A stretch of 64,000 bases of DNA, taken from positions 29,163-93,162 of IMG/VR virus record IMGVR_UViG_3300044712_000557. One strand, 5' to 3'. How positions within the stretch are numbered: the stretch's first letter is position 1; the number at the start of each line of letters is the position of its first letter. Below the pieces are notes generated by a model that did not search any database, was not told where the DNA came from, and saw only the letters and a program-made list of their open reading frames with translations. Shown one piece after another: positions 9,315 to 28,475 of the stretch. The translations under genes were made by a program, and so were the position numbers. The stretch comes from a virus.

Positions 9315-9320
9315 TTCTAC

Positions 9321-9397: not shown

Positions 9398-9676
9398 GTT
9401 CGCCATGTGGGATCGCGAAAGGGTGGCGGAAAACCCGGAACCGCCAGCAAGAGTAACCTTAGGCGCGTGAAAGCTTCATGCTCGATATGGATGGCTGGGG
9501 CCAATGATAGGTTGCGACGACGGCTTACTTCTAGTGCCCCACATGGCACATCTCTATGGGACAGAAGACTCGCTGTTGTGTTCGTAAGCGTCAAGGATGG
9601 TACCGTCCTGAGCTACTACGGCACGATGGAGATCAGAAGACATCGTGGGGTAGGACCACACTGTCCCTCAATTCTT
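9398..9676 (+). other. spacer with H-type pseudoknot, no gene seen
   Basis: Bases 9421-9445 read GGGT-GGCGG-AAA-ACCC-GGAA-CCGCC, in which GGGT pairs with ACCC and GGCGG with CCGCC, an H-type pseudoknot. A GTGCC/GGCAC hairpin lies near 9534-9549. The rest shows no tRNA or credible frame. Confidence 0.4.
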
Positions 9677-9747
9677 GCCGGTCGAGCTAGGCTCAGAGCG
9701 GTCCTGTAAACCGCCCTTGCTCGGTGCGATACCGAGGACCGGCTCCA
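9677..9747 (+). tRNA. tRNA-Thr (TGT) with minimal D arm
   Basis: GCCGGTC pairs with GACCGGC. GCGGT-CCTGTAA-ACCGC gives TGT with C at 33. The D arm is reduced to GAGC-TAG-GCTC, a three-base loop. The T arm is CTCGG-TGCGATA-CCGAG. T73 and CCA are encoded. Total length is only 71. Stems are intact, so it may be functional. Confidence 0.65.
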
Positions 9748-9751
9748 CTTC

Positions 9752-9826
9752 GGGGTCATACGCCAACGGCTAAGCGGACTGCCTTTCAAGCAGTTGATGA
9801 GGGTTCAATTCCCTCTGACCCTACCA
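9752..9826 (+). tRNA. tRNA-Glu (TTC)
   Basis: GGGGTCA pairs with TGACCCT. ACTGC-CTTTCAA-GCAGT gives TTC. T arm GAGGG-TTCAATT-CCCTC; A73 and CCA are encoded. Confidence 0.9.
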
Positions 9827-9831
9827 TCTAT

Positions 9832-9902
9832 GCCGGGAAGAGCAACGCTGGACGGCACGGCTACCGCAATGGTCGGCTGCATAGGATCCAGCCCCGGCAC
9901 CA
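9832..9902 (+). pseudogene. tRNA-like sequence with CCA, interior degenerate
   Basis: GCCGGGA can pair with CCCCGGC and CCA follows, and a GGCTG/CAGCC arm is near the 3' end. The T loop motif and a clean anticodon arm are absent. Confidence 0.4.
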
Positions 9903-9907
9903 TCTGT

Positions 9908-9984
9908 CCTCCCGTAGCCCTAAGGATAGGGCACCAGCCCCCGAAGCTGGAGCTTAGTGGGTTCGATTCCCACCGGGAGTACCA
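9908..9984 (+). tRNA. tRNA-Arg (CCG), C33
   Basis: CCTCCCG pairs with CGGGAGT apart from the first pair. CCAGC-CCCCGAA-GCTGG gives CCG with C rather than T at 33. T arm GTGGG-TTCGATT-CCCAC; A73 and CCA are encoded. Confidence 0.8.
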
Positions 9985-9999
9985 TCCAAAGGAGTCGCA

Positions 10000-10035
10000 A
10001 TGAGCAACGGAGGAACGTCATGCTTATGTAGCTAA
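10000..10035 (+). CDS. 11-residue leader-like peptide
   Basis: ATG 10000 follows AAAGGAG. The peptide is MSNGGTSCLCS and stops at TAA 10033-10035, inside the loop of a GTAGC/GCTAC hairpin (10028-10044) whose loop holds the ribosome site of the next gene. Translation of the leader could therefore open that site. This is inferred from geometry only. Confidence 0.4.
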   Translation: MSNGGTSCLCS

Positions 10036-10040
10036 GGAGG
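10034..10040 (+). promoter_or_regulatory. ribosome binding site in hairpin loop
   Basis: AAGGAGG, a near-perfect site, begins in the loop of the hairpin GTAGC-TAAGGAG-GCTAC, its last G being the first base of the 3' strand. It lies 10 bases before ATG 10051. Confidence 0.5.
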
Positions 10041-10050
10041 CTACCCAAGC

Positions 10051-10221
10051 ATGGCTGCTTCGAACGATCGTTCCGCGAAGGACAAGCAGATGGCTGCGCG
10101 TCTGAAGGCTGAAGGTGATGACCGGCACATCGGCCGCTGCTGCATCTGCTACCGTATCATCTCCAACGGCGCTGCGTGCGAGAACCACTACGGTGCTCAC
10201 GCGCGTGGTGCTAGCGACTAA
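10051..10221 (+). CDS. 56-residue zinc-finger-like protein
   Basis: A strong AAGGAGG precedes ATG 10051. The protein is basic at the N-terminus (AASNDRSAKDKQMAARLK) and then has CCICYRIISNGAACENHYGAH. The C-x-x-C...C-x-x-H pattern should bind one zinc. Codons are notably GC-rich compared with its tRNA surroundings. It resembles small phage proteins of unknown role; nucleic-acid binding is likely. It is flanked by Arg tRNA genes. Confidence 0.75.
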   Translation: MAASNDRSAKDKQMAARLKAEGDDRHIGRCCICYRIISNGAACENHYGAHARGASD

Positions 10222-10235
10222 GCAGTATAGCTGCG

Positions 10236-10273
10236 GGCGACAGCTAAGTGGGGCTCATGCCGCCACATCGCCC
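10236..10273 (+). other. stable hairpin before Arg tRNA pair
   Basis: GGGCGA pairs with TCGCCC around an inner GTGG/CCAC stem and a GGC-TCAT-GCC tip. No T tract follows. It is probably a processing or termination structure after the zinc protein gene. Confidence 0.35.
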
Positions 10274-10277
10274 TCAT

Positions 10278-10354
10278 GGCCCATTCGTTCAACTGGATGA
10301 GGATACCGGGCTACGAACCCGGAGATTGCAGTTCGAATCTGCAGTGGGCCACCA
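10278..10354 (+). tRNA. tRNA-Arg (ACG)
   Basis: GGCCCAT pairs with GTGGGCC. CCGGG-CTACGAA-CCCGG gives ACG, usually edited to inosine. T arm TGCAG-TTCGAAT-CTGCA; A73 and CCA are encoded. Confidence 0.92.
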
Positions 10355-10358
10355 TCTT

Positions 10359-10433
10359 GGCGCTATAGCTCAACGGACAGAGCGCGAGTTTCCTAAACTC
10401 AAGGTCCGAGTTCGACTCTCGGTAGCGCCTCCA
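10359..10433 (+). tRNA. tRNA-Arg (CCT)
   Basis: GGCGCTA pairs with TAGCGCC. GAGT-TTCCTAA-ACTC gives CCT. T arm CCGAG-TTCGACT-CTCGG; T73 and CCA are encoded. Confidence 0.9.
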
Positions 10434-10445
10434 ACCTAGGAGCAT

Positions 10446-10631
10446 ATGGAACACCCAAGTGGATTCCCAATGAGTTCTTCGTTCTCCGTTGCTGTCAGAG
10501 TGCAAGATGACAATGGAGTCACCATCAAGCAAGAGCAGTTCTCGCTGACTGGCTACTTCAAGGACTCCTCCGAGATGTTAGCTAAAGCAGTCGAGTGGAC
10601 GGACAAACAGAAGAGAGAAGCTAGAGAGTAA
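10446..10631 (+). CDS. 61-residue protein, unknown function
   Basis: ATG 10446 follows AGGAG. The protein looks like a small beta-type domain (FSVAVRVQDDNG, SLTGYFKD) followed by a helix (SSEMLAKAVEWTDKQKREARE). An internal ATG at 10470 is a possible later start. Its TAA overlaps the ATG of the next gene (TAATG), which indicates coupling. Confidence 0.65.
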   Translation: MEHPSGFPMSSSFSVAVRVQDDNGVTIKQEQFSLTGYFKDSSEMLAKAVEWTDKQKREARE

Positions 10632-11176
10632 TGGACTCAGAGACAAAGGCCGGGTTGAGCGTGATCCTTGGAACCTTCCTCGCAGTCATCCTGCTGTCGT
10701 GGGTGGTCCAGGGAAACGACTGCTGGATGTTCAAGATCTTCGCACCGAAGTACGAGCAGCAGGAGATTCTTCTAAAGGAGGCAGCCGCCCAGACCGGGAT
10801 GCCTGCTATTGCAAACTTCCGAGAGCGCAAGCTTCTCAAGGACATCATCGAGCTTCGTGACCAGAACGGGCTCGTGACCTATACGTACGTTTGGAACGAG
10901 TTCAATGGAAAGATGGTATTCTTCTGCGATAGCATCGGGTATGGAATCCCGTACGCTACGCAGTACACTTCCCCGGAGAAGATGGTCGGATACAACAGTG
11001 CGCCGGCCGTGGTTCCCCAGGCAGATCCCAACGGGCTCTTCTCCCCGGCATCAGCCGAGGGCACCTGGGTCATGTGTAAGAACCCCAACGGAAAGGAAGT
11101 GCGCCCTGTTTACGTAGAACCGCGCATCATCGTCTCCCCGTTCCCACTGACGAAACAGCCAGCGGAGCAGAACTAG
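10631..11176 (+). CDS. membrane-anchored protein, unknown function
   Basis: The 181-residue protein has one N-terminal membrane helix (about residues 8-27, GLSVILGTFLAVILLSWVVQ) and a soluble domain of about 150 residues. The latter contains LVTYTYVWNEFNGKM, IGYGIPYATQYTSPEK and a late WVMCKNPNGKE. The topology and segments recall a hypothetical protein common in phages of enteric hosts, but I assign no function. It starts within the stop of the upstream gene. Confidence 0.7.
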   Translation: MDSETKAGLSVILGTFLAVILLSWVVQGNDCWMFKIFAPKYEQQEILLKEAAAQTGMPAIANFRERKLLKDIIELRDQNGLVTYTYVWNEFNGKMVFFCDSIGYGIPYATQYTSPEKMVGYNSAPAVVPQADPNGLFSPASAEGTWVMCKNPNGKEVRPVYVEPRIIVSPFPLTKQPAEQN

Positions 11177-11197
11177 AATCAACAGGGTCTGTTGATT
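11177..11197 (+). terminator. hairpin after membrane-protein gene
   Basis: AATCAACA-GGGTC-TGTTGATT is a perfect 8-bp stem starting directly after the stop. No T run follows, so termination would be weak or factor-dependent; a processing role is also possible. Confidence 0.4.
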
Positions 11198-11260
11198 CAC
11201 AGCGAGTGTCGAGAAATCAACCGGTCGTGCGCTGTGACCGTACTCGCGACAGCGCGCCAT

Positions 11261-11338
11261 GGCCCCTTGGTGTAACCCGGACAAGCATACTTGGCTTCTA
11301 ACCTTGAGGCGACAGTTCGAATCTGTCAGGGGCCTCCA
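11261..11338 (+). tRNA. tRNA-Arg (TCT)
   Basis: GGCCCCT pairs with AGGGGCC. The loop CTTCTAA gives TCT, but the anticodon stem CTTGG/CCTTG has two T-T mismatches. T arm GACAG-TTCGAAT-CTGTC; T73 and CCA are encoded. Confidence 0.75.
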
Positions 11339-11344
11339 TCTTTC

Positions 11345-11438
11345 AGTGGCGTAGTGTATGGCAGCACGGGGGGACTTATAAACCCTATAGCGCCAGATTA
11401 GCGCACCGGATTGGGTTCGATTCCCAACGCCACTACCA
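11345..11438 (+). tRNA. tRNA with anticodon TAT (Ile) and a long variable arm
   Basis: AGTGGCG pairs with CGCCACT. GGGGA-CTTATAA-ACCCT gives TAT with one A-A mismatch. A variable arm with GCGC-CAGATTA-GCGC makes it class II, which is not expected for Ile. T arm TTGGG-TTCGATT-CCCAA; A73 and CCA are encoded. It may derive from a Leu, Ser or Tyr tRNA by anticodon change. Confidence 0.7.
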
Positions 11439-11439
11439 T

Positions 11440-11530
11440 GGAAGGGATGATCGAGTTGGCAGATCACCTACCTGCTAAGTAGGACAGCCCTCATAAGGCT
11501 GCGAGAGTTCGATTCTCTCCCCTTCCGCCA
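11440..11530 (+). tRNA. tRNA-Ser (GCT), class II
   Basis: GGAAGGG pairs with CCCTTCC. CCTAC-CTGCTAA-GTAGG gives GCT. The variable arm AGCC/GGCT is present. T arm GAGAG-TTCGATT-CTCTC; G73 and CCA are encoded, as expected for serine. Confidence 0.92.
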
Positions 11531-11543
11531 CCTTAGTGAGACT

Positions 11544-11906
11544 ATGGAAAAACCAAGGCGTCTTCTGTTTTCGGTCACGGCGAAGGACTTAGATATCCAG
11601 ACCTTCTGTACGGGTGGCAATGGAGGCCAGCACAGGAACGCCAAGCAGAATGGCGTACGACTCATCCATCGGGCCTCAGGAGCCCGCGCAGAGCATCGGG
11701 ACGGACGGGACCAGGGGAAGAACCGCAGGGAGGCCTTCCTGAAGCTCCTAGAGACTCCAGAGTGGAAGGCGTGGTCGAAGATGGAAGTCTCCAGAAGGCT
11801 AGGACTGATCACTGCGGCTGAGAATGCTGTAGAGGAAGCCATGGCAGCTCCCAACCTACGTATCGAGGTTAAGGGAGACGACGGCACATGGCACGAGATT
11901 GAATAA
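11544..11906 (+). CDS. GGQ-domain release-factor-like protein
   Basis: The 120-residue protein carries the peptidyl-tRNA hydrolysis motif GGQ at residues 27-29 (CTGGNGGQHRN), followed by the usual RF domain 3 pattern (GVRLIHRASGARAEHRD, then KNRREAFLKLL). It lacks the codon-recognition domain of RF1/RF2, so it is shorter than a release factor and nearer to the rescue factor ArfB. It should act in the ribosomal peptidyl-transferase centre and free stalled chains. ATG 11544 lies 13 bases after tRNA-Ser, and the stop is one base before the next tRNA. Confidence 0.85.
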   Translation: MEKPRRLLFSVTAKDLDIQTFCTGGNGGQHRNAKQNGVRLIHRASGARAEHRDGRDQGKNRREAFLKLLETPEWKAWSKMEVSRRLGLITAAENAVEEAMAAPNLRIEVKGDDGTWHEIE

Positions 11907-11907
11907 C

Positions 11908-11981
11908 GGTAGGCATGCTTAGGGACATAGCCGAGATTCGAACCTTTGGCTAGCTGGGTTCGAATCCCAGGCCTACCGCCA
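11908..11981 (+). tRNA. tRNA with ambiguous anticodon (CGA-Ser or TCG-Arg)
   Basis: GGTAGGC pairs with GCCTACC and the T arm CTGGG-TTCGAAT-CCCAG is perfect; G73 and CCA are encoded. The anticodon arm CCGAG...TTTGG has G-T pairs and a 9-base loop ATTCGAACC. Its centre is CGA after T33. The variable loop is short. The GATTCGAACC segment is an exact complement of the T-loop region, so the RNA could misfold. Confidence 0.6.
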
Positions 11982-11996
11982 TCTTAAGGAGAAACG

Positions 11997-12212
11997 ATGT
12001 GTTGCTGTAGATGTAGCCGTGCGCACGACGAGGCTATTGCCGACATGGTTCTGGCGGAAGCTATCCTGACGGAGCATGCCTTTCGGGCTATGCACCCAAA
12101 CCTCCACCCAGCCGTTGAGGAAAGGATGATTAGGCTGGGCAGCCTTATCTCTCCTGGCCTCAATGAGTCGATGCTGGCCTATCTTACCAAGCTGTGGAGA
12201 CTAGCTAAGTGA
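11997..12212 (+). CDS. 71-residue protein with Cys-rich N-terminus
   Basis: AAGGAG precedes ATG 11997. The protein opens with CCCRCSRAHDE and continues as a helical domain (IADMVLAEAILTEHAF, then GLNESMLAYLTKLWRL). No family is recognised. Its TGA overlaps the next GTG start. Confidence 0.65.
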   Translation: MCCCRCSRAHDEAIADMVLAEAILTEHAFRAMHPNLHPAVEERMIRLGSLISPGLNESMLAYLTKLWRLAK

Positions 12213-12493
12213 AAGACTTCCTAGGAAAAGAGATCACGGTCGGATGCCTGATCGCGTATCCGGCGCGCATGAGTTCTTCAGTCTGGATGAACGTCGCGCG
12301 AGTCGTTGGATTTAGCACACGCAAGGATACCTGGGCTAGGAAGAACGTTCCATCTCTCAAGCTGAAGCGCGTGTCTAGCACAGACAGCTACTTCAAGCCT
12401 GGGACCACCACAGAGATCTACGCCCTCGACAACGTACTCGTGCTTGAGGAGGCAGATGTCCCGAAGCAAGAAGAGGCCGTACACCAAGAGTAA
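12209..12493 (+). CDS. 94-residue beta-type protein, unknown function
   Basis: GTG 12209 overlaps the upstream TGA (GTGA). KDFLGKEITVGCLIAYPAR and VARVVGF give a small beta-barrel-like pattern seen in many phage hypotheticals. An acidic tail follows. Its 3' end overlaps the next gene by 38 bases. Confidence 0.65.
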   Translation: MKDFLGKEITVGCLIAYPARMSSSVWMNVARVVGFSTRKDTWARKNVPSLKLKRVSSTDSYFKPGTTTEIYALDNVLVLEEADVPKQEEAVHQE

Positions 12494-12704
12494 GCGCTTC
12501 GACGCGACATGTCGTAGCCATGGCGGTTGCCCGTACTGCCAGGGGAATCGAAAGCATTCGACCAATCGTAGGAGCTATCCATTGCGGGCAGAGGTAGCCG
12601 AAGGCGTTTGGTCATTTGAGGAGTGGCAAGCTAGTGAAGAAGGGTGCAACCGAGATTGTTGTCGTACTCGACCGTTCGGGGTCGATGCAGAGCACGAAGA
12701 CTGA
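12456..12704 (+). CDS. 82-residue basic Cys-rich protein
   Basis: GAGGAGG lies 4 bases before ATG 12456, a strong site that favours this start. The protein is basic (SRSKKRPYTKSKR), has CRSHGGCPYC near residue 20 and a second cysteine group (CNRDCC) near 65. It could bind zinc. It overlaps both neighbours in other frames, by 38 and 71 bases, so its exact end is uncertain. Confidence 0.5.
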   Translation: MSRSKKRPYTKSKRFDATCRSHGGCPYCQGNRKHSTNRRSYPLRAEVAEGVWSFEEWQASEEGCNRDCCRTRPFGVDAEHED

Positions 12705-13335
12705 CGCAGAGGGCGGCCTGAAGGCATTCGTGGAGAAGCAGCGAGAACTTCCCGGCGAGTGCGTGCTGACCCTGTATCGATTTGACGATACGATCGAGCG
12801 CGTCTTTGAGGAGAAGCCTCTGGTACGAGTCGAGCCATACGACCTCCAGTTGGTCCCTAGGGGTTCTACGGCCCTCCTAGACGCCATGGATCGAGCCATC
12901 GATGAGGTGGGATCGCGTCTCGCTCGTCGTGCCGACTATGATCGTCCAGAGTTCATCTACTTCGTGACGATCACAGATGGCTACGAGAACGCCTCCAGGA
13001 AGGCCTCTCCCGCCAGCGTCTTCGATAAGGTTACGCATCAGCGTGACAAGTACGGCTGGCAGTTCGTCTTCATCGGTGCCAACCAGGACGCTATCGCCAC
13101 GGCTTCGAAGCTGGGTATCGGGGCGCAGTACTCCCTTACATATCGTGATAGCTCCATGGGTACCAAGAGTGCTTACAACAGCATGAGCGACGGCATCCTG
13201 CGTTCTCGCCAGCTTGGCGGGCAGGCTGTGTGCTTTACCGCTCAGGAGCGCACGGAGGCCATGGCCAGCGATGACGACATCAAGGCTCTTAAGACGACCT
13301 TCGGAACATCGAGTGTGACAACTCCAAGAAAGTAA
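12634..13335 (+). CDS. von Willebrand factor A domain protein
   Basis: GTG 12634 has GAGGAG 10 bases upstream, so I prefer it to the TTG at 12616. The 233-residue protein is a single vWA domain. It has the MIDAS metal site DRSGSM near residue 14, a following Thr in the GSTAL segment near 75, and the Asp in TITDGYENAS near 110. Such domains bind partner proteins through a divalent metal. It has no signal peptide, so it acts in the cytoplasm. It is followed 4 bases later by the RNase H-like gene. Confidence 0.85.
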   Translation: MKKGATEIVVVLDRSGSMQSTKTDAEGGLKAFVEKQRELPGECVLTLYRFDDTIERVFEEKPLVRVEPYDLQLVPRGSTALLDAMDRAIDEVGSRLARRADYDRPEFIYFVTITDGYENASRKASPASVFDKVTHQRDKYGWQFVFIGANQDAIATASKLGIGAQYSLTYRDSSMGTKSAYNSMSDGILRSRQLGGQAVCFTAQERTEAMASDDDIKALKTTFGTSSVTTPRK

Positions 13336-13339
13336 CGTG

Positions 13340-13858
13340 ATGGCCTCAAAATGGAAGACTCTCAGCGGGGAGAACATCGCTGACATCGTGCAGTTCCTGA
13401 AGGACTCTAACCGCCATGGTCAGATCCTTCACGTTGGTACAGACTCGCTGCAGACTGGAAGGTACACGCAGTTTGTGACTGTCGTGGTCCTGCTGAACCC
13501 CAGGCGTGATGGGGTGGGATCTGGCGGCAGGGTCTTTTATCAGAGAGACATCGTTCCCCGCATCAACTCACTACGCGAGCGGCTTACTAAGGAAGTTTGG
13601 AAGTCGCTCGACCTTGCCATGCAACTGCCTGAGTTTGACTTGACTGTGCATATCGATGCCAACCCATCGGAGAAGCATATGTCCAGCAAGTACCTGCAGG
13701 AGCTGGTTGGGATGGTCGTAGGGCAAGGGTTCAAGGCGCTGTGGAAGCCAGATAGCTGGGCCGCAACGCATGCCGCCGACCACGTCGTACGAATCAAAGG
13801 GAGACTGCCGAGCACTGGTGCTCAACTGGGCTTGAACCCCAGGGTAGCCACTGGCTAG
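13340..13858 (+). CDS. RNase H-like protein (DUF458/YkuK family)
   Basis: The 172-residue protein has ILHVGTDSLQTGRYTQFVTVVVL near residues 29-50, the start of the RNase H-like fold of the YkuK/DUF458 family, with a conserved Asp. HIDANPSEKHMSSKY and a final ADHVVR complete the core. It may act on RNA or RNA-DNA hybrids, but activity is not known. The last 18 codons lie inside tRNA-Ser (TGA), so the C-terminus is encoded by tRNA sequence. ATG 13340 is preferred over GTG 13337. Confidence 0.75.
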   Translation: MASKWKTLSGENIADIVQFLKDSNRHGQILHVGTDSLQTGRYTQFVTVVVLLNPRRDGVGSGGRVFYQRDIVPRINSLRERLTKEVWKSLDLAMQLPEFDLTVHIDANPSEKHMSSKYLQELVGMVVGQGFKALWKPDSWAATHAADHVVRIKGRLPSTGAQLGLNPRVATG

Positions 13859-13884
13859 GGGTTCGATCCCTCCAGTCTCCGCCA
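13800..13884 (+). tRNA. tRNA-Ser (TGA), class II
   Basis: GGAGACT pairs with AGTCTCC. CTGGG-CTTGAAC-CCCAG gives TGA. The variable arm AGCC/GGCT is present. G73 and CCA are encoded. It overlaps the upstream protein gene by 59 bases. Confidence 0.9.
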
Positions 13885-13891
13885 CTCTAAG

Positions 13892-13942
13892 AGCGCCACA
13901 AACTATCTGGTTCCAATGGGGTCTACGTTGTGGCCCGGCGCT
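13892..13942 (+). other. stem-loop after tRNA-Ser
   Basis: AGCGCC pairs with GGCGCT and ACAA with TTGT, with a five-base bulge on one side and a 26-base loop. It has no tRNA features and is possibly a processing or regulatory element. Confidence 0.35.
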
Positions 13943-13983
13943 GAACCCTGCAATCCCCTCTAAGCGGGGAATAATGTCCGCAT

Positions 13984-14020
13984 CCCCCTGGGAAGCTTAG
14001 CTCTGCAGGGGGCTTTCCTT
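13984..14020 (+). terminator. terminator-like hairpin before SLOG gene
   Basis: CCCCCTG (13984-13990) pairs with CAGGGGG (14006-14012), followed by CTTTCCTT. It separates the vWA/RNase H-like block from the SLOG-like gene. Confidence 0.55.
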
Positions 14021-14031
14021 ACTGAGGCGTA

Positions 14032-14460
14032 ATGCTTGTTGGAATAGTCGGCGTCGAAGCAGCAAAGCTGGACGCCCCAACCAAAGAGAGAGCGCTGATC
14101 AGGCTAGAGCAGATCATCTCTAGCCCACATACATCTCTCGTCGTGAGCGGGCATTGCCATCTAGGGGGGATTGACATACTCGCCGAGGAGACAGCAGCAA
14201 GGCTAGGCAAGCCTTTCCTGATCTTCCCTCCCAAGAACTTGCAGTGGTCCACTGGCTACATGCCTCGCAATCTACAGATCGTCAAGTTCAGCGATGTCGT
14301 CATCTGCCTAACGGTCAAGGAGCTTCCTGAAGGCTACGACGGGATGCGCTTCGACCTCTGCTACCATTGCGGGACTAAGGAGCATATCAAGAGCGGGGGA
14401 TGCTGGACCGTCAAGCAGGCAATCAAGGCAGGAAAGAAGGGACGCGTAGAGGTCATATGA
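14032..14460 (+). CDS. SLOG-like Rossmann protein
   Basis: The 142-residue protein opens with the strand LVGIVGVEAA and then has VVSGHCHLGGIDILAEETAARLG, matching the SGG-x-x-G-x-D nucleotide-binding pattern of the SLOG/DprA/LOG superfamily. FLIFPPKNLQW, GYMPRNLQIVKFSDVVI and a late cysteine group (CYHCG, then C) follow. Family members bind nucleotides or nucleotide-derived signals. No effector domain is fused. Its TGA overlaps the next ATG. Confidence 0.7.
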   Translation: MLVGIVGVEAAKLDAPTKERALIRLEQIISSPHTSLVVSGHCHLGGIDILAEETAARLGKPFLIFPPKNLQWSTGYMPRNLQIVKFSDVVICLTVKELPEGYDGMRFDLCYHCGTKEHIKSGGCWTVKQAIKAGKKGRVEVI

Positions 14461-14780
14461 GCGATGACTTGGATTACGAACAGTTAGACCCTGGGATCAT
14501 AGGACTCGTAGCTCTCCTGCGCGCCCATGGGTTCGAAACGACTGACTCTGGCGATGGAGTGAGCAAGAAGGCCAAGGGGATCGATGATGCATTGCCCTAC
14601 CCTCACGTCTTCTGCGTGGTCGACCCAGATAGACTCGTCATCGAGGCTAAGAGAGCTTGGCACACGTTGAACGTCTATCCAGAGTACGAAGATCTCTCTA
14701 TCGAGGCTAGCTACAGCCCCGATGACAACGCTGCGATTCTTGCCATCTATGGCAACGTCGTCTCTGGTGGGAGCTTGTAG
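14457..14780 (+). CDS. 107-residue protein, unknown function, overlaps tRNA
   Basis: ATG 14457 overlaps the SLOG gene stop (ATGA). The protein has ELDPGIIGLVALLRAHGFETTDSGDG, a pattern seen in small phage proteins, then VFCVVDPDRLVIEAKRAW. The function is unknown; coupling suggests it works with the SLOG-like protein. The last four codons and stop lie inside tRNA-Ser (GGA). Confidence 0.7.
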   Translation: MSDDLDYEQLDPGIIGLVALLRAHGFETTDSGDGVSKKAKGIDDALPYPHVFCVVDPDRLVIEAKRAWHTLNVYPEYEDLSIEASYSPDDNAAILAIYGNVVSGGSL

Positions 14781-14837
14781 GACAGAGGCGGGCTTGGAAA
14801 GCTCGCCGTTCGGGTTCGACTCCCGATCCCACCGCCA
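14766..14837 (+). tRNA. tRNA-Ser (GGA), short variable loop
   Basis: GGTGGGA pairs with TCCCACC. GCGGGC-TTGGAAA-GCTCGC gives GGA. T arm TCGGG-TTCGACT-CCCGA; G73 and CCA are encoded. The class II arm and a normal D arm are missing (72 bases total), so it is atypical for serine. It overlaps the upstream gene by 15 bases. Confidence 0.7.
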
Positions 14838-14840
14838 CTC

Positions 14841-14869
14841 TCGTGGCCATGATAGTTATCGTGGCCATG
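14841..14869 (+). repeat. short direct repeat
   Basis: TCGTGGCCATG occurs twice, at 14841 and at 14859, in the spacer between tRNA-Ser and tRNA-Cys. No function is apparent. Confidence 0.4.
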
Positions 14870-14904
14870 TTCGAAGTTACTGAACGATCCGCGAAGTTGA
14901 ACAT

Positions 14905-14981
14905 GTGGATGTCGCCAAGAGGCTCAAGGCGCTAGGCTGCAACCCTAGTATTCGGTGGTTCAAATCCACTCATCCACTCCA
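14905..14981 (+). tRNA. tRNA-Cys (GCA)
   Basis: GTGGATG pairs with CATCCAC. CTAGG-CTGCAAC-CCTAG gives GCA. T arm GGTGG-TTCAAAT-CCACT; T73 (normally U73 for Cys) and CCA are encoded. Confidence 0.92.
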
Positions 14982-14982
14982 C

Positions 14983-15057
14983 AGGGCCTTGGCCGAGAGG
15001 ACTAGGCAGCGGGCTTTGACCCCGCTAAGACAGGTTCGATTCCTGTAGGCCCTGCCA
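14983..15057 (+). tRNA. tRNA-Gln (TTG)
   Basis: AGGGCCT pairs with AGGCCCT. GCGGG-CTTTGAC-CCCGC gives TTG. T arm ACAGG-TTCGATT-CCTGT; G73 and CCA are encoded. Last tRNA of the array. Confidence 0.92.
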
Positions 15058-16396: not shown

Positions 16397-16999
16397 CTAC
16401 TGGTTAAACCGAAACGCCGAAAGCATCCTTCTGATGCTGGCATCATCGTACTGCGGTGCGACTGCCGAAGTCTGCGTAGCTGGAACCAATGGTGTCTCTT
16501 CGCGCATTAGGCCCTGGAGCATCTTCGCAATGCGGTCTTGATGGGCCGCATCTGGTACGGAGAACTCAGGGCTTAGCTCGTCAGCAAACGGCTGCCCAGG
16601 CGCAGTCACATCAGCAATTGTACCACCCACCGTGTTGACGTAGCCCTGAGCGCTAGGAGCCACTCCCCCAGCCCTGCGTGTCTTTCCAGGGCCGGCGTTG
16701 TAGGCAGACACAGCCTGCCTAGGATCCTTGAAGCTGTGTAGCATCTTGGCGATGTATCCCCCAGCCGCGTCGATAGCCTTGTCGGGATCCAGCATGTCAC
16801 GATGCGCGTAGCCCATCTCCTTAGCGGCTGCAGGATGCACCTGGAAGAGCCCCAGGGCCTTCCCCTGGTCACCAACGACACTAGGATCCCCCTGGCTCTC
16901 TCTCATGGCGATTGCGTACAGCAGAGACGCGGGAATGCCCAGGGGCTTCGCAGCCCTGCGGGCCATCTCTACGAGTTGATTCTGAGGGATCTCAGGCAT
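16397..16999 (-). CDS. soluble lytic transglycosylase
   Basis: The 200-residue protein has an SLT domain (GH23). Catalytic Glu is in MRESQGDP near residue 34, followed by GKALGLFQVHP near 47-57 and SAYNAGPGKT near 99-108. It cleaves peptidoglycan between MurNAc and GlcNAc with anhydro-sugar formation. There is no signal peptide. Its position beside the ejection proteins suggests it is carried in the virion to open a local hole in the wall during DNA entry. The C-terminal 70 residues are of unknown role. Confidence 0.88.
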   Translation of the reverse strand: MPEIPQNQLVEMARRAAKPLGIPASLLYAIAMRESQGDPSVVGDQGKALGLFQVHPAAAKEMGYAHRDMLDPDKAIDAAGGYIAKMLHSFKDPRQAVSAYNAGPGKTRRAGGVAPSAQGYVNTVGGTIADVTAPGQPFADELSPEFSVPDAAHQDRIAKMLQGLMREETPLVPATQTSAVAPQYDDASIRRMLSAFRFNQ

Positions 17000-17908: not shown

Positions 17909-20900
17909 CTACTTCGCTTTTGGGCCGCTACCGCTTCCCTTCGGCTTCCCCAGAGCCGTACGGCTGTAGTACTTGCTCTGAGTCTCGAAGGCACCGCGAG
18001 GACGATTCGGATACGACGGCCTGTTGCGCGACACGACGGCCGTAGATACGCTACTGAGCCCGGTCTTGACGCCCGGTTCTACGGTATGGCCTGGGAAGAG
18101 AGCCTTCAGCTCGTCTACGAGTTCTCCAGGCTGATAGAACTTCTGGAACGTCCTCGTATCCTTCGCGCCATCCTTAGGTGGCGGTCCCATGAGGACGCCA
18201 TCAAAGATTGGCTCGCCGCCCATGTTCTTTTCTGCGCGCACAGCAACGTACATCTTGTCCTTCGCGCGGCCCATCGCCTCGATCCACATCGAGTGGCGCA
18301 TGTTTGGCGGGATCACGTTACCAACGAAGGTGTTCGTTACGATGTCGGCCATGCCTTCTGGCTTCGTTGGGCTGTGAGTAGGATCGTAGCCCTTCACGTT
18401 TGCCGCGCCCGCCTCCTCGTAGTGCTTGAGGTCGGCTCCCTTGCCGGATCCCCAGTCGAATACGGTCTTGCCCTTGATGGCCTCGCCGATAGCTTTCGCA
18501 TGCGACGAAGATCCAGAACGAGCCATAGCCGTACGGCCAGCGTTCGCTACAACCTGCTCCTCAGTGTACTTGCGAGGGTTCCATTCCTTGCTGTATGGCA
18601 CCGGGCGACCGTACTGCTTTGGAAGCTCAGATAGGGAAGCCTGAGAAGGAGCCTTGCGCAGTGGGATCGTCTTCTTGTCAGGCTCAGCTACGCCGAGAGA
18701 CTTCGCAGCCGCCTTGCGCATCTGAGTGAGCGTGTCCTCAGAGAATGGAGACTTGTCGGGCGCTGCCTCTGGGGCATTGCCGGCCATGAAATCTCTGACG
18801 ACATTCTTATCGGCCTGATTGGAGTCGTGCCCACCCTTATACTCAGCCATCATCTTGTTGATGTACGGCATATCGAACTTGAATTGGATCTTCTGCTGCT
18901 TAATGAACTTCCCATTCTTGTCCCAGATGCGTCGGTCGGTCAGCAGCTTCTCATAGCCGGGCCAGTTGCGCATACGTTCGAACGGGGGCTTGACGCCACG
19001 CTGCTTACATAGCGCATCCAGCTTCTTTAAGTCGCCCTGCCACTCATCGATGAAGATCTCGACTGGAGCGGTGTCGATACGCTCCTGGCGATCCTTGGCA
19101 TCCAGCTTGTCCCACGCCTCCTTGAGCAGGCGACTCTCAGCGTAGGCCTGTGGGTTCTTGGCTCCCTTCGCTGTTCCCTCGGCGATCTTAGCCGCCATCG
19201 TCTTCGCGTCGATCTTCGGGAGATGCTGCTCGCTGAACTGGTCAAAGGCAACCTTCTCAGGGTCGAGGCCGACCTTCTCGCCAGTCTTAGCGCTCCTCCA
19301 GTTCTGCTCTTCAGAGTAGTCCTTCCAGTTCTCCATGCGGTTGACTAGCTGGTGCTCCCTGCTAAGGCCAGAATCGTGATACGGAATGACGTAGTCGATA
19401 TCCTTTGAGGCCAGTAGCGCCTTGATATGCTTATCACTGATCCCGATTGCCTCGACGCCGACATTGTCGTACTTGTCACGCAGTTCATATGCACGCTTCA
19501 TGTTGCGGATGGACTCGCGCTTATTAAATCTGAGCGAGCCGTCCGGGTTGAAGCCGTCACCCTCGGGGATGACGCTGCAATTGATCATCTCGTTCGTGTC
19601 CTTCATGGACTCGACGTACTCGATCTCCTTGGTGTAAGCCTGACCCTTGAGGCCACGCAGAGCCTTGTCCATTACGGCCTGCATCTTGTCGAGTAGATGC
19701 GGAACCTCAAAGTCAGACCAAGAGTTGGAGCGAGCGCCAGAGTAGCGGTTCATCTTGTCGATCTGACTCTGCTTCATGCTGAGATACTCGCCCTTGTACT
19801 CAGCTCGTCCGATAGGCACCTTGGCGTTCAGGCCAGCAAATGCAGCAGACAGAACAGCGTACTGCTCTGGGTCATCTACGAACATCTTGTTGCGGCCTTC
19901 CTGCGTCAGGGCTAGCTTAGCGTTCTCTGCCGTAAGTTGTGCGATCTGGCCCTTGCCCTTGCCAGTCTTAATCTCGTAGCCCTCAATGGCCTTATTGATC
20001 GCCGTGTCCATCTTGATGCGACGGGACTCGACGTAGCAAGGTCCGCAGTTAACTTCGTGGCCCTTGTCCTCAAGCATGCGTCGGATCTTCAAGATGTCAT
20101 CTGCCTCAAGCATCTTGCCGCGCGCCTTCTGGATGGCGTCAACAGTGTCCGACAGCTTATAGCGGCGACGGCACATCGTCGTGTAGTCCTCGCTCACCGG
20201 GTAACGAGGATCGCCATTCTTCTTGATGCCAGTGGCACCGTTGAGTGCGACGAAATCGAGCCGATCAGGATCGGCATTGACTGCAGCCGCAACGCTACGG
20301 AGGTCAGCCTCAAATGACTGCATCTGCTTTTCCGTAAAGGCCTTGACCTTCTTATTGGCCTTGCGAGCAGCATACATCGTTTCGTTCACGGTACGAGTGG
20401 AGTACTTAGCGGGCGCTACCGCCCCTCGCGTCATGACCACGCCATTCTTCTGGACCACGCCCTCGCCCTTAGATCCAGCGTTGAACAGCGGCTCATCAGC
20501 GGGAGACTGCTTGCCCATACGAGGCTTCAAGTCCGTCTTCTGAGTCTCCAGAAGCCCCTTCTGCCCAGAGCGCGGCTGCGCAATGTTGCCAGCTCGTTCT
20601 AGCATCGACCCAGTAGAGCTGCGTAGAGGCTTCGGGCCTACGCTAGCCTTCGGTTCGATTCCATAGGCCTCGTATCCCTTCGCCTTCATGCCCGCATTCG
20701 AAGCTTCGCGCTCGAATGCCTTGCCAGTGCTCATGCTCTCAAAGATGGACTCTGGATCTGGATGAACTGCGCGCAGAGCTGTCGTGAAGAAGTCACTGAC
20801 CTTCTTGAAGTACTTGCCAATCACGCCCTGTGGCTGCCACTGTGGGTTGGCCTGACGGCGGTTGAAGTACTCACGATAAGCGTCAGAGATAACTTCGTCT

Positions 20901-23900
20901 ACGCCACGGTTGGCTGCCTCTGCAATCGGGCCATACTTCTTCTGTAGAACTGCACGCTCCTTCGGTGTTGCGAAGTGATCCAAGAAGACGTGGCCAAATT
21001 CGTGAGGGATCGAACCCTTGCGAACGACTTCGATGATTGCTTCCTTGTCGAGGACAGTCTTGAGCCCCTCTGCGACCATCTTGCCAGCGCGCACGCCTTC
21101 GATCGCCCCTGGGGAGTACTCTCCAGCAAGAGTACTTGGGTCGACCTCGATGCGATCCTTCGGGATGATGCGGATGTTTCCGCCTGGAGTCTCAATGACG
21201 AGCGACCCGTCCGTCTCATCGACGTAGGCGCTCTTCTTGAAGTTGTCAGGCAGGCTTCTGATGATCTGCGTCGGAGTTACGAGCGGACGACGAGACTCTA
21301 CGAGGTCGGAGAGCGCGTGCTCCTTAACGTTGAGTTCAAACTGACCGTTCTCTAGCCAGCGTCCCTCTCCACGAGCAGCTAGGCGATCACGCATCGCGAT
21401 AGCAGCCTTGGTGACGATACCTTCCGACACGCCGACCTTGTTAGAGCTTGGGAAGATGATCTTGTCGGCACCGTTGGCCTCGGCGAATTCACGTACGGCC
21501 TGGATCATCGCTGCGGAGTTCTCTCCCTCGCCCTTGTCTAGGTGCCACATCTCCACCTTTCCCTTGCGCAGGCGAACGGACACGGACTCTCCGTCCGGGC
21601 CATGGAGTTTGGACTTTCCTAGGTTGCCCTCCTCGACTCCGAATCCCCCAGGCAGGTAAGGTAGTTTGTCGCTATCTACGAGGTAACTCTTCGCAGTATC
21701 GCCAGCCTTACGAAGAGCCTGTTTGATGCCGCCCATAACCTTGGTAGCGGGTTCTGCCCTGAACGGCCCCTCGACTTTTGGGGGCATCCTCAGCTCAGGC
21801 TTCTCCTTCGTCTTCTGGTAGTCCTCGGCCAGGGAGTACTGCTTGCCCCCTCCTTCGACAAATTCCTTCTTAACCGATGGCCTTACTCTGCTTGGGGTTC
21901 CATCGGAGTCGATCGAGGTGATCATGGATCCGTCTGGGTGGACATATCCAATACGGTTGCCATGAATATCTTTAGCGTCTGGGTTGGGCGCAGTCTCACG
22001 GGCCAGCTTAGCGGCTGCTGCGAAGTCACGCTTGTTCACCAGGGCCTTGATCTGGTCTACCTGTTCTGGGGTGCGTGCGGTCCTAGGAGCCGTCTTTGCT
22101 TCAGGCGCAGTCTCCGGGGCCACCTCGGCCACTGGAGTAGCTTCTGGGGCCGCCTGGGCCTCCACGGGGGCCTTCTTCGGAGTCTTCTTGCCTGTCTTTT
22201 CGGCCCGAACCTTATCGTAGGCAGCCTCAGCTTGTTCACGAGTCGTCTCAATACCCTCGCGAGCCTGGGTAGCCTGGATGGTCGAGGACATCATGTCCTT
22301 GCGCTGCCCCTCGTCGGCCAGAATCTTCTTGACGTTTACCCTCTTGCTCTTCTTGGTCGGAGCCGGCGCTGGAGCTTCAGGTGGGGCTGGTGGCGGATCA
22401 GGAGCAGGCGGCTCGGAAGCCTTCCGCTCGATTACCGCGTCTACGGCCTTGATGTCTGCCTGGAGATTGGCTGCGTCAACCGGATGCTCTTCGGTCTTAG
22501 CGGCAGCCTCTAGTTGATCACGAAGGCGCGCGAGAGCCGGTAGATCGAGGGCGTCGAGGCCCTTGCTTTGAGTCTCGGCGAATTTCCCTTCGATCCCCGT
22601 TGGTCCCGTTGGCTGCTCGGCCTTCGGCTCGACCAGAGCCTTCCCCTTCTGCTCACGATAACGCTTCAGAGAGTCCTGAAGGAGAGGCTCAAAGGTGGCC
22701 TGATCAACGTGCCTCTTGATGAGTCGTGCGCGGATTGCCCCTGCGTTCCCCTGGCTCTCTGCCACGAGGGCATCCATGGCGGCCTGAGGAGACGTAGACA
22801 TTCCAGATCCAGCGATAGCGCCAGCCGTCGCGTTCTGCTTCGCGTTCTCACGCTCGGCAACGATAGCCTTAACGGCACGATCACGCGCGATAGCTCGCAT
22901 GATCTTAGAACCAGCCTCGTCCTGTGGGATTGGAACGTCCTCTACGACTCCAGTATCCTTGTTCTTCTTTCTCTGGGTAAGCTTACCAGTCCTCCACTCC
23001 TCAACGGTACGGTCGTACTCTGGGTGGAAGTCCTGCTCATTACGACCGATCCCGAGATCCTTCGCACGCTGCTCGCCCTTCGACACTTCAGGCTCAGGCA
23101 CACCAGCTTCCTTCATCGTCTTCGTAACATCAGCTAGAGGCGTGTGAGGAGTCTGCTGGAACGGATCGGCTGCGGCAACTTCGGCGGCATTGCGCTCAGG
23201 AGCACCAGGGACTACACGCGGAGACTCGCCACGTACTTCAGGCGCAAGCATGCCAAGAAGCTGTGCCTGCTCTTCTGGCGTGAACCCTCCTAATCCTCCA
23301 CGCTCAGTCTTGCTCTGCCATGGATCTGGAGCCATCAACTGAGACTGCTGCTCAGGTGTTAGCTGGATAGGCGGCTCAGAGTAAGGAGCCTGCAGTGGCT
23401 CGCCCCACTTGATCCCCTTCGCAGCTTCAGCGTTCGCGATGTTGTCTGCGATGCCTAGGTCTTCTCTTTGGCGAGCCTTGGCCATCTGAGTCTCGTAGGC
23501 CTTCATCGCAGGCTCTAGGGCCTCAGATGGATCCATGCCGTATGCCTTCGCATAGGCCTTTACCATCTTCTCTAGGCCAGGGTTCTGCTCGTACTTGTCG
23601 AGTAGGTCTAGCTCTGCTTGGGCCTTCTGCTCAGCAATCTGAGCCTTACGCTGCTTGAGAGTCTCCACTGCAGACGGAGGCGGTGCCTGGTCGGCCTGTT
23701 GCGTTGCTGCTAGCCCTTCGTTGAGGGGCGCTTCCATCGCAGCCTGATCGAACTCAGTCGCAGGACGACCAGCAAATGGATCGAGGCCAGCCCTTGCAGC
23801 GAGAAGCTGCTCTGGGCTACCAGCCATAGCTCCAGTGATGCTCTTTGGATCGACGCCCTGTGTTGCGGCTAGCTGCTCAACAATGAAGCCAACGTCTGGG

Positions 23901-25483
23901 CTTGCGTTGATCTGCTTCCAGTTCGCAGGGTCTAGGCTGTCGCGCCCCTGAAACAGCTCTGCGTCGGTAGCCATCCCCGGTCGTCCACTTTCCGGCGGGA
24001 GATAGCCCTCATTGACTGGAGCTTTACTCCCACTTACGGCTCTGGCTAGCTTGGCCCCTAGTCTTTCTCCAGCCGCACCCATGCGCTTTCGAATTGCATA
24101 TCCTAGCGCTAGTCCCATGTATGGGCTACCCGTCAGTGCGGTTCCGGTCGCAGCTCCCCCAGCATAGCCCGCCACCTCGCCGGCCATCTTTCCAGCCTTA
24201 GGCAGGAAGGACGAGGCTTCCGATGTGGCCTGCGCAGATACAGGCTTTTCACCAACCGTCTCTACCCTCATCCCCGTTAGATTTGGATCCGGCGTACCTT
24301 CTGTGGCTACTGGCTTGTTGGACTTGTAAGCCTCTAGGGCCTTCGATACTACGTCCTTTGCACCATTAACTACGTCGCCCTGTGGCCCTACTCCCTCAGC
24401 TAGATGCTTACCAGAGTGAAGGGCGAAATATGCATCGGTGCCGGACCCCACGATGGCAGGCAGCGCCTTCTTCAGGTCGCCCTCAGCCAATGCCTCGCCA
24501 GCCTGTCCTCCCTGCTCGGCAGCTCCCATTGCCATAGTTGGAGTGAAGTAGCCAGAGATCGCCTTATTGGCAGCAGAAGCCGTCTTACCCGATGCTACGC
24601 GACCCTTTAGAAATGCTTTTGTCCTAGGATCAGCGGCAGAGAAAATCTCAGACAGAGGGCCGGCAGTAGAGGCTTCAGTCTTCTTGATTCCCTCTAGAGT
24701 CTTGGCAGCATTTGCTCCCCTAGCCGCCTCAGCACCAGAGAATCCCATAGCCAACATCGTGGGATCTCCACCGGCCATGGCTACGCCAAGATCAAAAGGC
24801 TTAGACGCAGCCTGCTCAAAAGAATTCATCCATGGATTCTGCTCGGCGATAGACTCCTGCACCTCAGTAGGAGATCCAGCCTCTGACTGAGGATCGAGGG
24901 CATGCACGTTTAGCCCGATGGAAGCGCGCAATCCACGGTTGACAGCCTCTGGGAGGCTCTTCGGAGCATCAGTCCTAGCCCATTCGTTCAAGCGAGTTTG
25001 AGCGCCACCACGACCAAGCTGATAGATAGGACTACCGTTGGGATCAAGACGAGTTCCAGTAACGGCCTCCATGAGGCCTCGGCGTTCTCCAGCCACCGGC
25101 TTGATATTTCTCCCGCCGGTCTGAATGGAATCGAGCACCCTGCCAAGTACGTCCGCAGGGATACCCATCGTGTCGCCTACAGCTCCGACTGTGGTGCCAG
25201 ACGCAGCCCTTACCGCATCGAGAGTTGGACTACCAGTTGATGGAGCAGGCTCAGATGTACTAGGAGCGTTCAGCCACGGAGAATTCTTGACCCCAGACGC
25301 AGCATCTCCAAGTTGGGCCATCATTCTCGTCCCAAGGCCAACTTCAGACTTTTGCTTCATGGCGTCTTGGAATTTGGCCATGGCGATCGGCTGAGTCTGA
25401 ATGGACTTCTCTAGGTCATCATCGTCCCAAGAATCAAACTCGCCTGGGAATACTTCCCTGATCTGCTTTGCTAGGATGCCCAT
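17909..25483 (-). CDS. giant polyvalent virion protein (zincin plus methyltransferase)
   Basis: The 2524-residue protein has several regions. About 1-420 is helical. Near 437-475 is a small-residue hydrophobic segment (YAGGAATGTALTGSPYMGLA) that could insert in a membrane. About 480-1200 is coiled-coil and low-complexity linker rich in Pro, Ala and Glu. At 1494-1498 is HEFGH, a zincin metallopeptidase motif, followed by EVISDAYREYF. About 1700-2250 is a conserved-looking domain with NCGPC at 1812-1816. At 2342-2349 is FDWGSGKG, motif I of a class I SAM methyltransferase, then KGYDPTHSP and VTNTFVGNVIP. Such polyvalent proteins are thought to be injected with phage DNA to protect it. Substrates are unknown. 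Confidence 0.8.
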   Translation of the reverse strand: MGILAKQIREVFPGEFDSWDDDDLEKSIQTQPIAMAKFQDAMKQKSEVGLGTRMMAQLGDAASGVKNSPWLNAPSTSEPAPSTGSPTLDAVRAASGTTVGAVGDTMGIPADVLGRVLDSIQTGGRNIKPVAGERRGLMEAVTGTRLDPNGSPIYQLGRGGAQTRLNEWARTDAPKSLPEAVNRGLRASIGLNVHALDPQSEAGSPTEVQESIAEQNPWMNSFEQAASKPFDLGVAMAGGDPTMLAMGFSGAEAARGANAAKTLEGIKKTEASTAGPLSEIFSAADPRTKAFLKGRVASGKTASAANKAISGYFTPTMAMGAAEQGGQAGEALAEGDLKKALPAIVGSGTDAYFALHSGKHLAEGVGPQGDVVNGAKDVVSKALEAYKSNKPVATEGTPDPNLTGMRVETVGEKPVSAQATSEASSFLPKAGKMAGEVAGYAGGAATGTALTGSPYMGLALGYAIRKRMGAAGERLGAKLARAVSGSKAPVNEGYLPPESGRPGMATDAELFQGRDSLDPANWKQINASPDVGFIVEQLAATQGVDPKSITGAMAGSPEQLLAARAGLDPFAGRPATEFDQAAMEAPLNEGLAATQQADQAPPPSAVETLKQRKAQIAEQKAQAELDLLDKYEQNPGLEKMVKAYAKAYGMDPSEALEPAMKAYETQMAKARQREDLGIADNIANAEAAKGIKWGEPLQAPYSEPPIQLTPEQQSQLMAPDPWQSKTERGGLGGFTPEEQAQLLGMLAPEVRGESPRVVPGAPERNAAEVAAADPFQQTPHTPLADVTKTMKEAGVPEPEVSKGEQRAKDLGIGRNEQDFHPEYDRTVEEWRTGKLTQRKKNKDTGVVEDVPIPQDEAGSKIMRAIARDRAVKAIVAERENAKQNATAGAIAGSGMSTSPQAAMDALVAESQGNAGAIRARLIKRHVDQATFEPLLQDSLKRYREQKGKALVEPKAEQPTGPTGIEGKFAETQSKGLDALDLPALARLRDQLEAAAKTEEHPVDAANLQADIKAVDAVIERKASEPPAPDPPPAPPEAPAPAPTKKSKRVNVKKILADEGQRKDMMSSTIQATQAREGIETTREQAEAAYDKVRAEKTGKKTPKKAPVEAQAAPEATPVAEVAPETAPEAKTAPRTARTPEQVDQIKALVNKRDFAAAAKLARETAPNPDAKDIHGNRIGYVHPDGSMITSIDSDGTPSRVRPSVKKEFVEGGGKQYSLAEDYQKTKEKPELRMPPKVEGPFRAEPATKVMGGIKQALRKAGDTAKSYLVDSDKLPYLPGGFGVEEGNLGKSKLHGPDGESVSVRLRKGKVEMWHLDKGEGENSAAMIQAVREFAEANGADKIIFPSSNKVGVSEGIVTKAAIAMRDRLAARGEGRWLENGQFELNVKEHALSDLVESRRPLVTPTQIIRSLPDNFKKSAYVDETDGSLVIETPGGNIRIIPKDRIEVDPSTLAGEYSPGAIEGVRAGKMVAEGLKTVLDKEAIIEVVRKGSIPHEFGHVFLDHFATPKERAVLQKKYGPIAEAANRGVDEVISDAYREYFNRRQANPQWQPQGVIGKYFKKVSDFFTTALRAVHPDPESIFESMSTGKAFEREASNAGMKAKGYEAYGIEPKASVGPKPLRSSTGSMLERAGNIAQPRSGQKGLLETQKTDLKPRMGKQSPADEPLFNAGSKGEGVVQKNGVVMTRGAVAPAKYSTRTVNETMYAARKANKKVKAFTEKQMQSFEADLRSVAAAVNADPDRLDFVALNGATGIKKNGDPRYPVSEDYTTMCRRRYKLSDTVDAIQKARGKMLEADDILKIRRMLEDKGHEVNCGPCYVESRRIKMDTAINKAIEGYEIKTGKGKGQIAQLTAENAKLALTQEGRNKMFVDDPEQYAVLSAAFAGLNAKVPIGRAEYKGEYLSMKQSQIDKMNRYSGARSNSWSDFEVPHLLDKMQAVMDKALRGLKGQAYTKEIEYVESMKDTNEMINCSVIPEGDGFNPDGSLRFNKRESIRNMKRAYELRDKYDNVGVEAIGISDKHIKALLASKDIDYVIPYHDSGLSREHQLVNRMENWKDYSEEQNWRSAKTGEKVGLDPEKVAFDQFSEQHLPKIDAKTMAAKIAEGTAKGAKNPQAYAESRLLKEAWDKLDAKDRQERIDTAPVEIFIDEWQGDLKKLDALCKQRGVKPPFERMRNWPGYEKLLTDRRIWDKNGKFIKQQKIQFKFDMPYINKMMAEYKGGHDSNQADKNVVRDFMAGNAPEAAPDKSPFSEDTLTQMRKAAAKSLGVAEPDKKTIPLRKAPSQASLSELPKQYGRPVPYSKEWNPRKYTEEQVVANAGRTAMARSGSSSHAKAIGEAIKGKTVFDWGSGKGADLKHYEEAGAANVKGYDPTHSPTKPEGMADIVTNTFVGNVIPPNMRHSMWIEAMGRAKDKMYVAVRAEKNMGGEPIFDGVLMGPPPKDGAKDTRTFQKFYQPGELVDELKALFPGHTVEPGVKTGLSSVSTAVVSRNRPSYPNRPRGAFETQSKYYSRTALGKPKGSGSGPKAK

Positions 25484-28100: not shown

Positions 28101-28475
28101 TTACTCCTTTGAGGCGTCCCAATAATAAAGGGTACCATCGACCTTCTTGCCACCGAACCAGTGGGCAAACTTCTTTAGAACGGGAGTGGAATCAAGCACT
28201 ACCGTGTATACGCAGGCGATGTTGGAGGCCTTAATCATGGCCTTCATGTGCTCTGCCATCCTTCTCAAGATGGTCATAGACTTACGGTAGTCTTCTCTGA
28301 CCCAGAAGGGCTCAATGTGGACCATGGCAAACATCGTCCAGGTGGCTACGACCTCTCCCTGCTCATTGAATGCAGCCAGGATTCTGGAGTTCCCCGCCTC
28401 ATATACGTCAGACCCAGGCACTTCTCTAGGAGCTAAGTGGAACTCGTCCGGCTCAAGTTCTCGATAGGTGATCAT
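28101..28475 (-). CDS. GNAT-fold acetyltransferase-like protein
   Basis: The 124-residue protein has the GNAT order: an N-terminal strand, SRILAAFNEQGEVVATWTM, HIEPFWVREDYRKSMTILRRMAEHMKAM (the strand-turn-helix where acetyl-CoA binds) and CVYTVVLDSTPVLKKF. The usual Q/R-x-x-G-x-G/A is not clear, so catalysis is unsure. Similar GNAT-like proteins occur beside tail or internal-core genes of podoviruses. Confidence 0.65.
   Translation of the reverse strand: MITYRELEPDEFHLAPREVPGSDVYEAGNSRILAAFNEQGEVVATWTMFAMVHIEPFWVREDYRKSMTILRRMAEHMKAMIKASNIACVYTVVLDSTPVLKKFAHWFGGKKVDGTLYYWDASKE

Follow-up and report, generated by a model that had tools for sequence, protein, structure and literature searches.

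The locus and its operon

The stretch of DNA analysed here (the window, 64,000 nt) is part of a virus record of 93,162 bases. We have studied its gene for a protein of 2524 amino acids, which we call P0001. The long reading frame reported by the sequence-only reading is real: it starts with ATG and lies on the minus strand, which that reading had left unstated, while the plus-strand reading of the same positions is stop-rich. The motif positions that it gave in the protein (HEFGH at 1494, CGPC at 1813 and FDWGSGKG at 2342) are exact. All features are collected in Table 1.

Within the late (virion) operon, P0001 is the last of the large genes. Terminase, portal, major head protein and SU10-type adaptor genes precede it on the same strand, and the large proteins encoded between the adaptor gene and P0001 have no family hits. 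The start codon of P0001 overlaps the stop codon of the 492-aa gene (TAATG junction), as in translationally coupled operons. The product of this upstream gene has no family match; its place makes it a possible ejection protein. Close to the other end of P0001 we find an SLT transglycosylase gene. In podovirus-like gene orders the ejection proteins are usually found at the end of the virion operon, so that P0001 occupies the position of an ejection protein.

Other features of the region can be mentioned. The 125-aa protein encoded directly after P0001 has no Pfam match, it shows a HCYAAAEA...HWW...D pattern and resembles a small cysteine-peptidase-type fold. A 1153-aa protein with repeated ADATMLNLxxAINxSGG units (36049-39510, minus strand) is probably a tail protein, as judged by eye. 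Upstream of the terminase there is a DHH phosphoesterase (61034-61993, minus strand; phrog_4771, E 5.9e-65). The window also has 34 tRNA genes at 5455-15057; they are all encoded on the plus strand, whereas the late operon is on the minus strand.

The closest relative of P0001 is found in contig L040. It has the same zincin, three-cysteine domain and methyltransferase, with 42-54% identity, and also an ART-PolyVal match just past the three-cysteine domain. Both proteins share an N-terminal motif at the same place (57% identity over 28 residues), which is possibly a virion or ejection signal. Two upstream genes are also common to the window and the L040 contig. One codes for a small virion-type protein of 239 aa, 36.5% identical over 241 residues to a counterpart which adjoins the giant gene. 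The other one (28101-28475, minus strand) codes for a GNAT-like protein of 124 aa without Pfam match, which has 59% identity to a protein encoded near the giant gene of L040.

Table 1. Features of P0001 and of its operon in the window
Feature	Position	Strand	Evidence
Terminase	58677-60332	-	before P0001 on same strand
Portal	56382-58661	-	before P0001 on same strand
Major head protein	48131-49210	-	before P0001 on same strand
SU10-type adaptor	39933-40973	-	before P0001 on same strand
Small virion-type protein, 239 aa	27378..28097	-	shared with L040 contig
492-aa gene, upstream of P0001	25483..26961	-	ORF position, overlap
P0001, 2524-aa polyvalent protein	17909..25483	-	ORF, start/stop overlap with upstream gene
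N-terminal motif, residues 1-32, LAKQIREVFPGEFDSWDDDDLEKSI	25388..25483	-	shared with L040
Zincin metallopeptidase region, residues ~1434-1545	20849..21184	-	alignment of 56 relatives
HEFGH zinc-binding/catalytic motif, 1494-1498	20990..21004	-	motif, alignment
E1530, probable third zinc ligand	20894..20896	-	Glu in 53/56
Divergent radical-SAM domain (very probable), residues ~1728-2200	18884..20302	-	alignments, AlphaFold pLDDT 93.9, profile link via compact relatives
C1771, first proposed cluster ligand, just past beta1	20171..20173	-	76/76
CGPC 1813-1816, second and third proposed cluster ligands	20036..20047	-	Cys 76/76; aligns with compact CxYC
SDFE 1923-1926, end of beta2, place of radical-SAM GGE	19706..19717	-	S1923 and D1924 77/77, E1926 68/77
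YTK 1950-1952, beta3	19628..19636	-	Y1950 76/77, T1951 and K1952 77/77
N-x-S 1968-1970, beta4	19574..19582	-	N1968 and S1970 76/77
IPYH 2033-2036, beta6	19376..19387	-	P2034 77/77, H2036 76/77
SAM-dependent methyltransferase, residues 2317-2455	18119..18535	-	TIGR04096, E 9.7e-13
FDWGSGKG SAM-binding loop, 2342-2349	18437..18460	-	inside TIGR04096 match
125-aa gene directly after P0001	17508-17885	-	ORF
SLT transglycosylase, downstream in P0001 operon	16397..16999	-	PF01464, E 1.8e-21

A polyvalent protein with a zincin and a methyltransferase

The zincin proposed from the HEFGH motif is borne out by the alignment: H1494, E1495 and H1498 are followed by E1530 as probable third ligand, and a Glu is found at its position in 53 of 56 relatives, which had been chosen by HExxH only. 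The zincin goes together with the three-cysteine domain. Of the 71 relatives in which 400 or more residues precede this domain, 64 have HExxH on its N-terminal side and 11 on its C-terminal side, although the number of residues searched was similar (111,041 vs 106,099). The commonest distance from HExxH to the domain is about 200 residues.

The methyltransferase is also confirmed, by a match to TIGR04096, a Dnd-associated putative methyltransferase. The match has 47.7 bits, below the curated cut-off of 150, and covers model positions 6-142 of 478; thus P0001 appears to have the related SAM-binding half and is not filed as a member of this family. Pfam gives only a weak Methyltransf_23 match in this region (E 0.056). 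The conservation is good in L040, with 54% identity over residues 2305-2498. The target would most plausibly be DNA, and no dnd genes were identified in the examined parts of the virus record.

In 13 full giant relatives Pfam finds ART-PolyVal (8 proteins), RadC (3), LPD23, MuF_C, LPD38, LPD14, LPD3, PBECR2 and DNA methylase domains. By these domains the giant relatives qualify as polyvalent proteins as defined by Iyer et al. 2017 (PMC5512222), the class to which the sequence-only reading had assigned P0001 itself. P0001 resembles the phage-type proteins described there: it is very long and multidomain, belongs to a virion gene cluster and combines a zincin with a methyltransferase in one polypeptide. 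It differs by its radical-SAM-type domain, which is matched by no Pfam LPD model. Zincins have been proposed to process the polyvalent polypeptides, with a role that varies: P1 DdrB is processed before packaging, whereas N4 vRNAP enters the particle unprocessed (Iyer et al. 2017, PMC5512222). We also considered a functional link with RadC, suggested by a RadC gene beside one stand-alone homologue, and dropped it: a regular expression finds the RadC motif in 1 of 77 giants.

A widespread family with three cysteines

The domain between zincin and methyltransferase does not appear in standard searches. With tblastn we found nothing relevant for the whole P0001 or for residues 1690-2320 among 50,697 phage records, nor for residues 1690-2320 among plasmids. 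Pfam, PHROG and PDB sequence searches with P0001 or with the domain gave nothing relevant for the three-cysteine domain, no Pfam family matches it, LPD models included, and a short-peptide search with the full P0001 found nothing. The relatives came from two other approaches. One was a DNA-level pattern for CGxCYVExRR, for which shuffled versions of the window give an expectation of 0.00; it matched 31 IMG/VR contigs, and all encode homologues of residues ~1700-2240, most of them as part of very long open frames. The other, a profile-based scan, yielded 98 relatives from viruses (80 were retained) and 7 from bacterial genomes; the bacterial ones are MAG contigs without exception, and the titles of several refer to ruminant forestomach samples. 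In two bacterial phyla, searched with 296 and 398 genomes, we found only the known MAG relatives plus two short stand-alone ones, which makes the family look essentially restricted to mobile elements. With over 100 relatives in IMG/VR, nearly all in giant proteins, this is a well-defined and widespread domain. The invariant residues in so many viral contigs, together with the null expectation for the pattern, show that the reading frame is not due to chance.

Conservation was counted in 77 non-redundant sequences, for the cysteines in 76. P0001 has just five cysteines in 2524 residues. C1771, C1813 and C1816 are found in 76 of 76 sequences, and a fourth one, C2159, in 71 of the 76. Other invariant positions are D1766, G1916, R1918, S1921, S1923, D1924, D1932, T1951, K1952 and P2034, while N1968, S1970 and H2036 have one exception each (76/77). 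A part of the family is already contained in an unannotated PHROG: phrog_22978, which has no function assigned, is matched by 4 of 13 giants (best E 4.5e-242). A subgroup of four contigs (L231, L233, L235 and L237) reads CxKRSCxxGxCLYCY; its frames have ~790-1010 residues, lack HExxH and carry the domain close to their C-terminal end.

Predicted fold

AlphaFold, run with 74 sequences of the family, gives a confident model of the domain (pLDDT 93.9, pTM 0.89). The core has six strands alternating with helices and is followed by a helical subdomain. The conserved elements appear in the order Cys1 after beta1, CGPC in the next loop region, SDFE at the end of beta2, YTK in beta3, NxS in beta4 and IPYH in beta6. 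In the model this is the order of a radical-SAM enzyme, and the succession of strands and helices corresponds to a predicted partial (beta/alpha)6 barrel.

Although the core is predicted with confidence, no PDB chain reaches E<=1e-3 in Foldseek. TIM barrels make up most of the weak hits, the top ones being eight-stranded; the best include aldolases and the zinc-type barrel BKACE. Three radical-SAM enzymes (CysS, viperin and PflAE) are among the top 50 hits, and the target-normalised TM-score of PflAE (3cb8) ranks among the better ones (0.34, 7.2 A over 197 columns). We take the fold search as compatible with radical SAM, not as decisive. The sole significant structural match is BFVD A0A6J7VNV5, from an uncultured Caudovirales phage (E 1.4e-18 over 508 columns); it is annotated as uncharacterized and no function is given.

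Compact relatives and the link to radical SAM

Two stand-alone compact relatives are found in genomes (L202 with 242 aa, and L203/L206), with further ones in viral contigs. They read SLDxSTxCPKxxxGxPCxYCYV...GGLRxFSFGDY...GLKLKAITK...INVSVDxL. Their cysteine motif is C-X8/9-C-X-Y-C, compared with C-X41-C-X2-C in the window family. Moorella phage MTATph1 has one of them, WPA89565.1, with CX8CX2C and the same downstream motifs as the domain; unlike P0001 it has only 231 aa, no zincin and no methyltransferase, and it carries an extra C-terminal cysteine cluster. Its gene (L204:3980-4675, OR602862) is annotated as hypothetical protein and lies near an integrase and a DNA polymerase gene. In the Bacillota genome homologue L206:1501-2127 (minus strand) a TAG upstream of the conserved part breaks a longer tblastn match.

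These proteins connect the window family with radical SAM. All hhalign values given here come from profiles which we have built ourselves, not from a database-wide search. Compact relatives and window family align at 99.85% (P 1.5e-30), with the three cysteines superposed. Against a profile of 42 MoaA/SPASM sequences, 16 sequences with a short spacer reach 92.7% in an alignment that extends from the cysteine motif through beta5. A set of 25 compact and bridging sequences reaches 93.6%, in this case with the cysteine motif outside the alignment. Both matches have P values of 2e-7 to 4e-7. Controls with one side reversed give 0.5-12%, and the compact family matches BKACE, an unrelated TIM-barrel family, at 1-2%. 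On the same 42-sequence profile the known radical-SAM subfamilies score 97.7-99.8% and the compact relatives about 93%, which points to the three-cysteine family as a distant member of the superfamily.

The direct comparison of the window family with the radical-SAM profile is weak (9-16%). It is also weak with small radical-SAM profiles and with glycyl-radical activases, where the best local alignment is one beta/alpha unit off register, and these comparisons do not enter our argument. A likeness of IPYHxSG to the activase motif LPYHxxG, seen by eye, is not significant.

The compact and bridging sequences retain traces of how the motif may have changed. A Tyr precedes Cys3 in all 25 of them, in the place of the aromatic of the canonical CX3CX(aromatic)C; nine combine this Tyr with a spacer of 41-56 residues, and the aromatic is absent from window-type members. 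The path would lead from a short spacer through an insertion to the loss of the aromatic. The P0001 strand with N-x-S is aligned to the one that carries SxD in compact relatives and MoaA-type enzymes. The split C-Xn-C-X2-C motif explains why motif and family searches miss these proteins.

The likeness to MoaA/SPASM-like radical-SAM enzymes (PF04055, PF13186) consists of three conserved cysteines placed after beta1, a set of six beta/alpha units, a profile match of about 93% and, in the compact relatives, the SxD strand. The differences are the spacing (C-X41-C-X2-C instead of CX3CX2C), SDFE in place of GGE, a similarity below Pfam detection and the PDB fold result. GGE is common in the superfamily and not universal, so we have not taken it as defining. 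PF04055 detects no canonical radical-SAM gene in the virus record, whereas it finds such genes in 14 of 14 control genomes. By homology through the compact relatives, the three-cysteine domain is very probably a divergent radical-SAM domain in which the cluster motif has been split. The sequence-only reading had left residues 1700-2250 unassigned, as a possible new enzyme: an enzyme-like domain new to Pfam is indeed present, but it can be assigned. That the domain has active radical chemistry is a weaker claim, though we hold it for more likely than not.

Proposed function and alternatives

We consider it reasonably probable that P0001 is a polyvalent protein of the virion or ejection module, from which the zincin frees a divergent radical-SAM enzyme and a Dnd-type methyltransferase. 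Judging by the position of its gene, P0001 would be made late and built into the particle; delivery with the virion is reasonably likely. The zincin would cut the chain in the particle or after entry, releasing the C-terminal enzymes. C1771, C1813 and C1816 would hold a [4Fe-4S] cluster at the mouth of the partial barrel, SAM would be cleaved at this cluster, and the radical would modify a host or phage macromolecule. The methyltransferase would be the second enzyme set free, acting most plausibly on DNA. Both would work early in infection on macromolecules of the host or the phage. Moorella thermoacetica is a strict anaerobe; Moorella and the forestomach MAGs fit an oxygen-sensitive cluster, but such contexts are few. 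Any link of P0001 to defences, which the sequence-only reading had raised, would come only from the general polyvalent proposal (PMC5512222) and the name of TIGR04096.

The domain might descend from radical SAM and have lost its radical chemistry: the cysteines would then bind a structural cluster or zinc, or form a CxxC redox dithiol, and the barrel could carry out another reaction, for which the invariant Lys 1952 and His 2036 are available. The loss of GGE, of the canonical spacing and, in window-type members, of the aromatic before Cys3 goes in this direction, as do the aldolases and BKACE among the best weak fold hits. We find this rather unlikely, since the three cysteines and the strand-end residues are kept throughout, as one conserved active site would be, the core has six strands and not eight, and the compact relatives keep CxYC and the SxD strand. 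An unrelated TIM-barrel or other fold with a three-cysteine zinc site, similar to radical SAM by convergence, is quite improbable. It would agree with the lack of a significant PDB match and with the eight-stranded barrels at the top of the weak hits, but against it stands a profile link of 93%, compared with at most 12% with one side reversed and 1-2% for BKACE; in the larger compact set this link holds without the cysteine motif in the alignment.

Another alternative concerns the role of the whole protein. P0001 might serve only in virion assembly or genome ejection, its enzyme domains being processed off or acting in the particle, with no host effector. Its place at the end of the structural operon and the varying zincin roles of P1 DdrB and N4 vRNAP (Iyer et al. 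2017, PMC5512222) would allow it. The enzymatic cargo of the relatives (ART, methylases, the nuclease-like PBECR2) fits effectors better than assembly factors, and we judge this alternative unlikely.

Significance

In the open-access literature searched, we found no earlier description of a polyvalent or virion protein with radical SAM; the main text of PMC5512222 does not mention radical, cysteine, iron or Fe-S. The analysis proposes a likely chemistry for a large domain family that has no name, is absent from Pfam and occurs in about 100 giant proteins of uncultivated phages. It also provides a motif series, CX8CX2C -> CX41-56CXYC -> C-X41-CGxC, and with the 231-aa Moorella phage homologue a tractable protein for a direct test of the assignment. 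In its widest form the proposal is tentative, with less than an even chance in our estimate: a widespread class of phages would package and inject an active split-motif radical-SAM enzyme, released by a neighbouring zincin from a giant polyvalent protein. The enzyme would modify a target in the host or the entering phage DNA as soon as infection begins, and the hosts would probably be anaerobes for the most part. If this is true, radical chemistry would join the activities proposed for polyvalent proteins.
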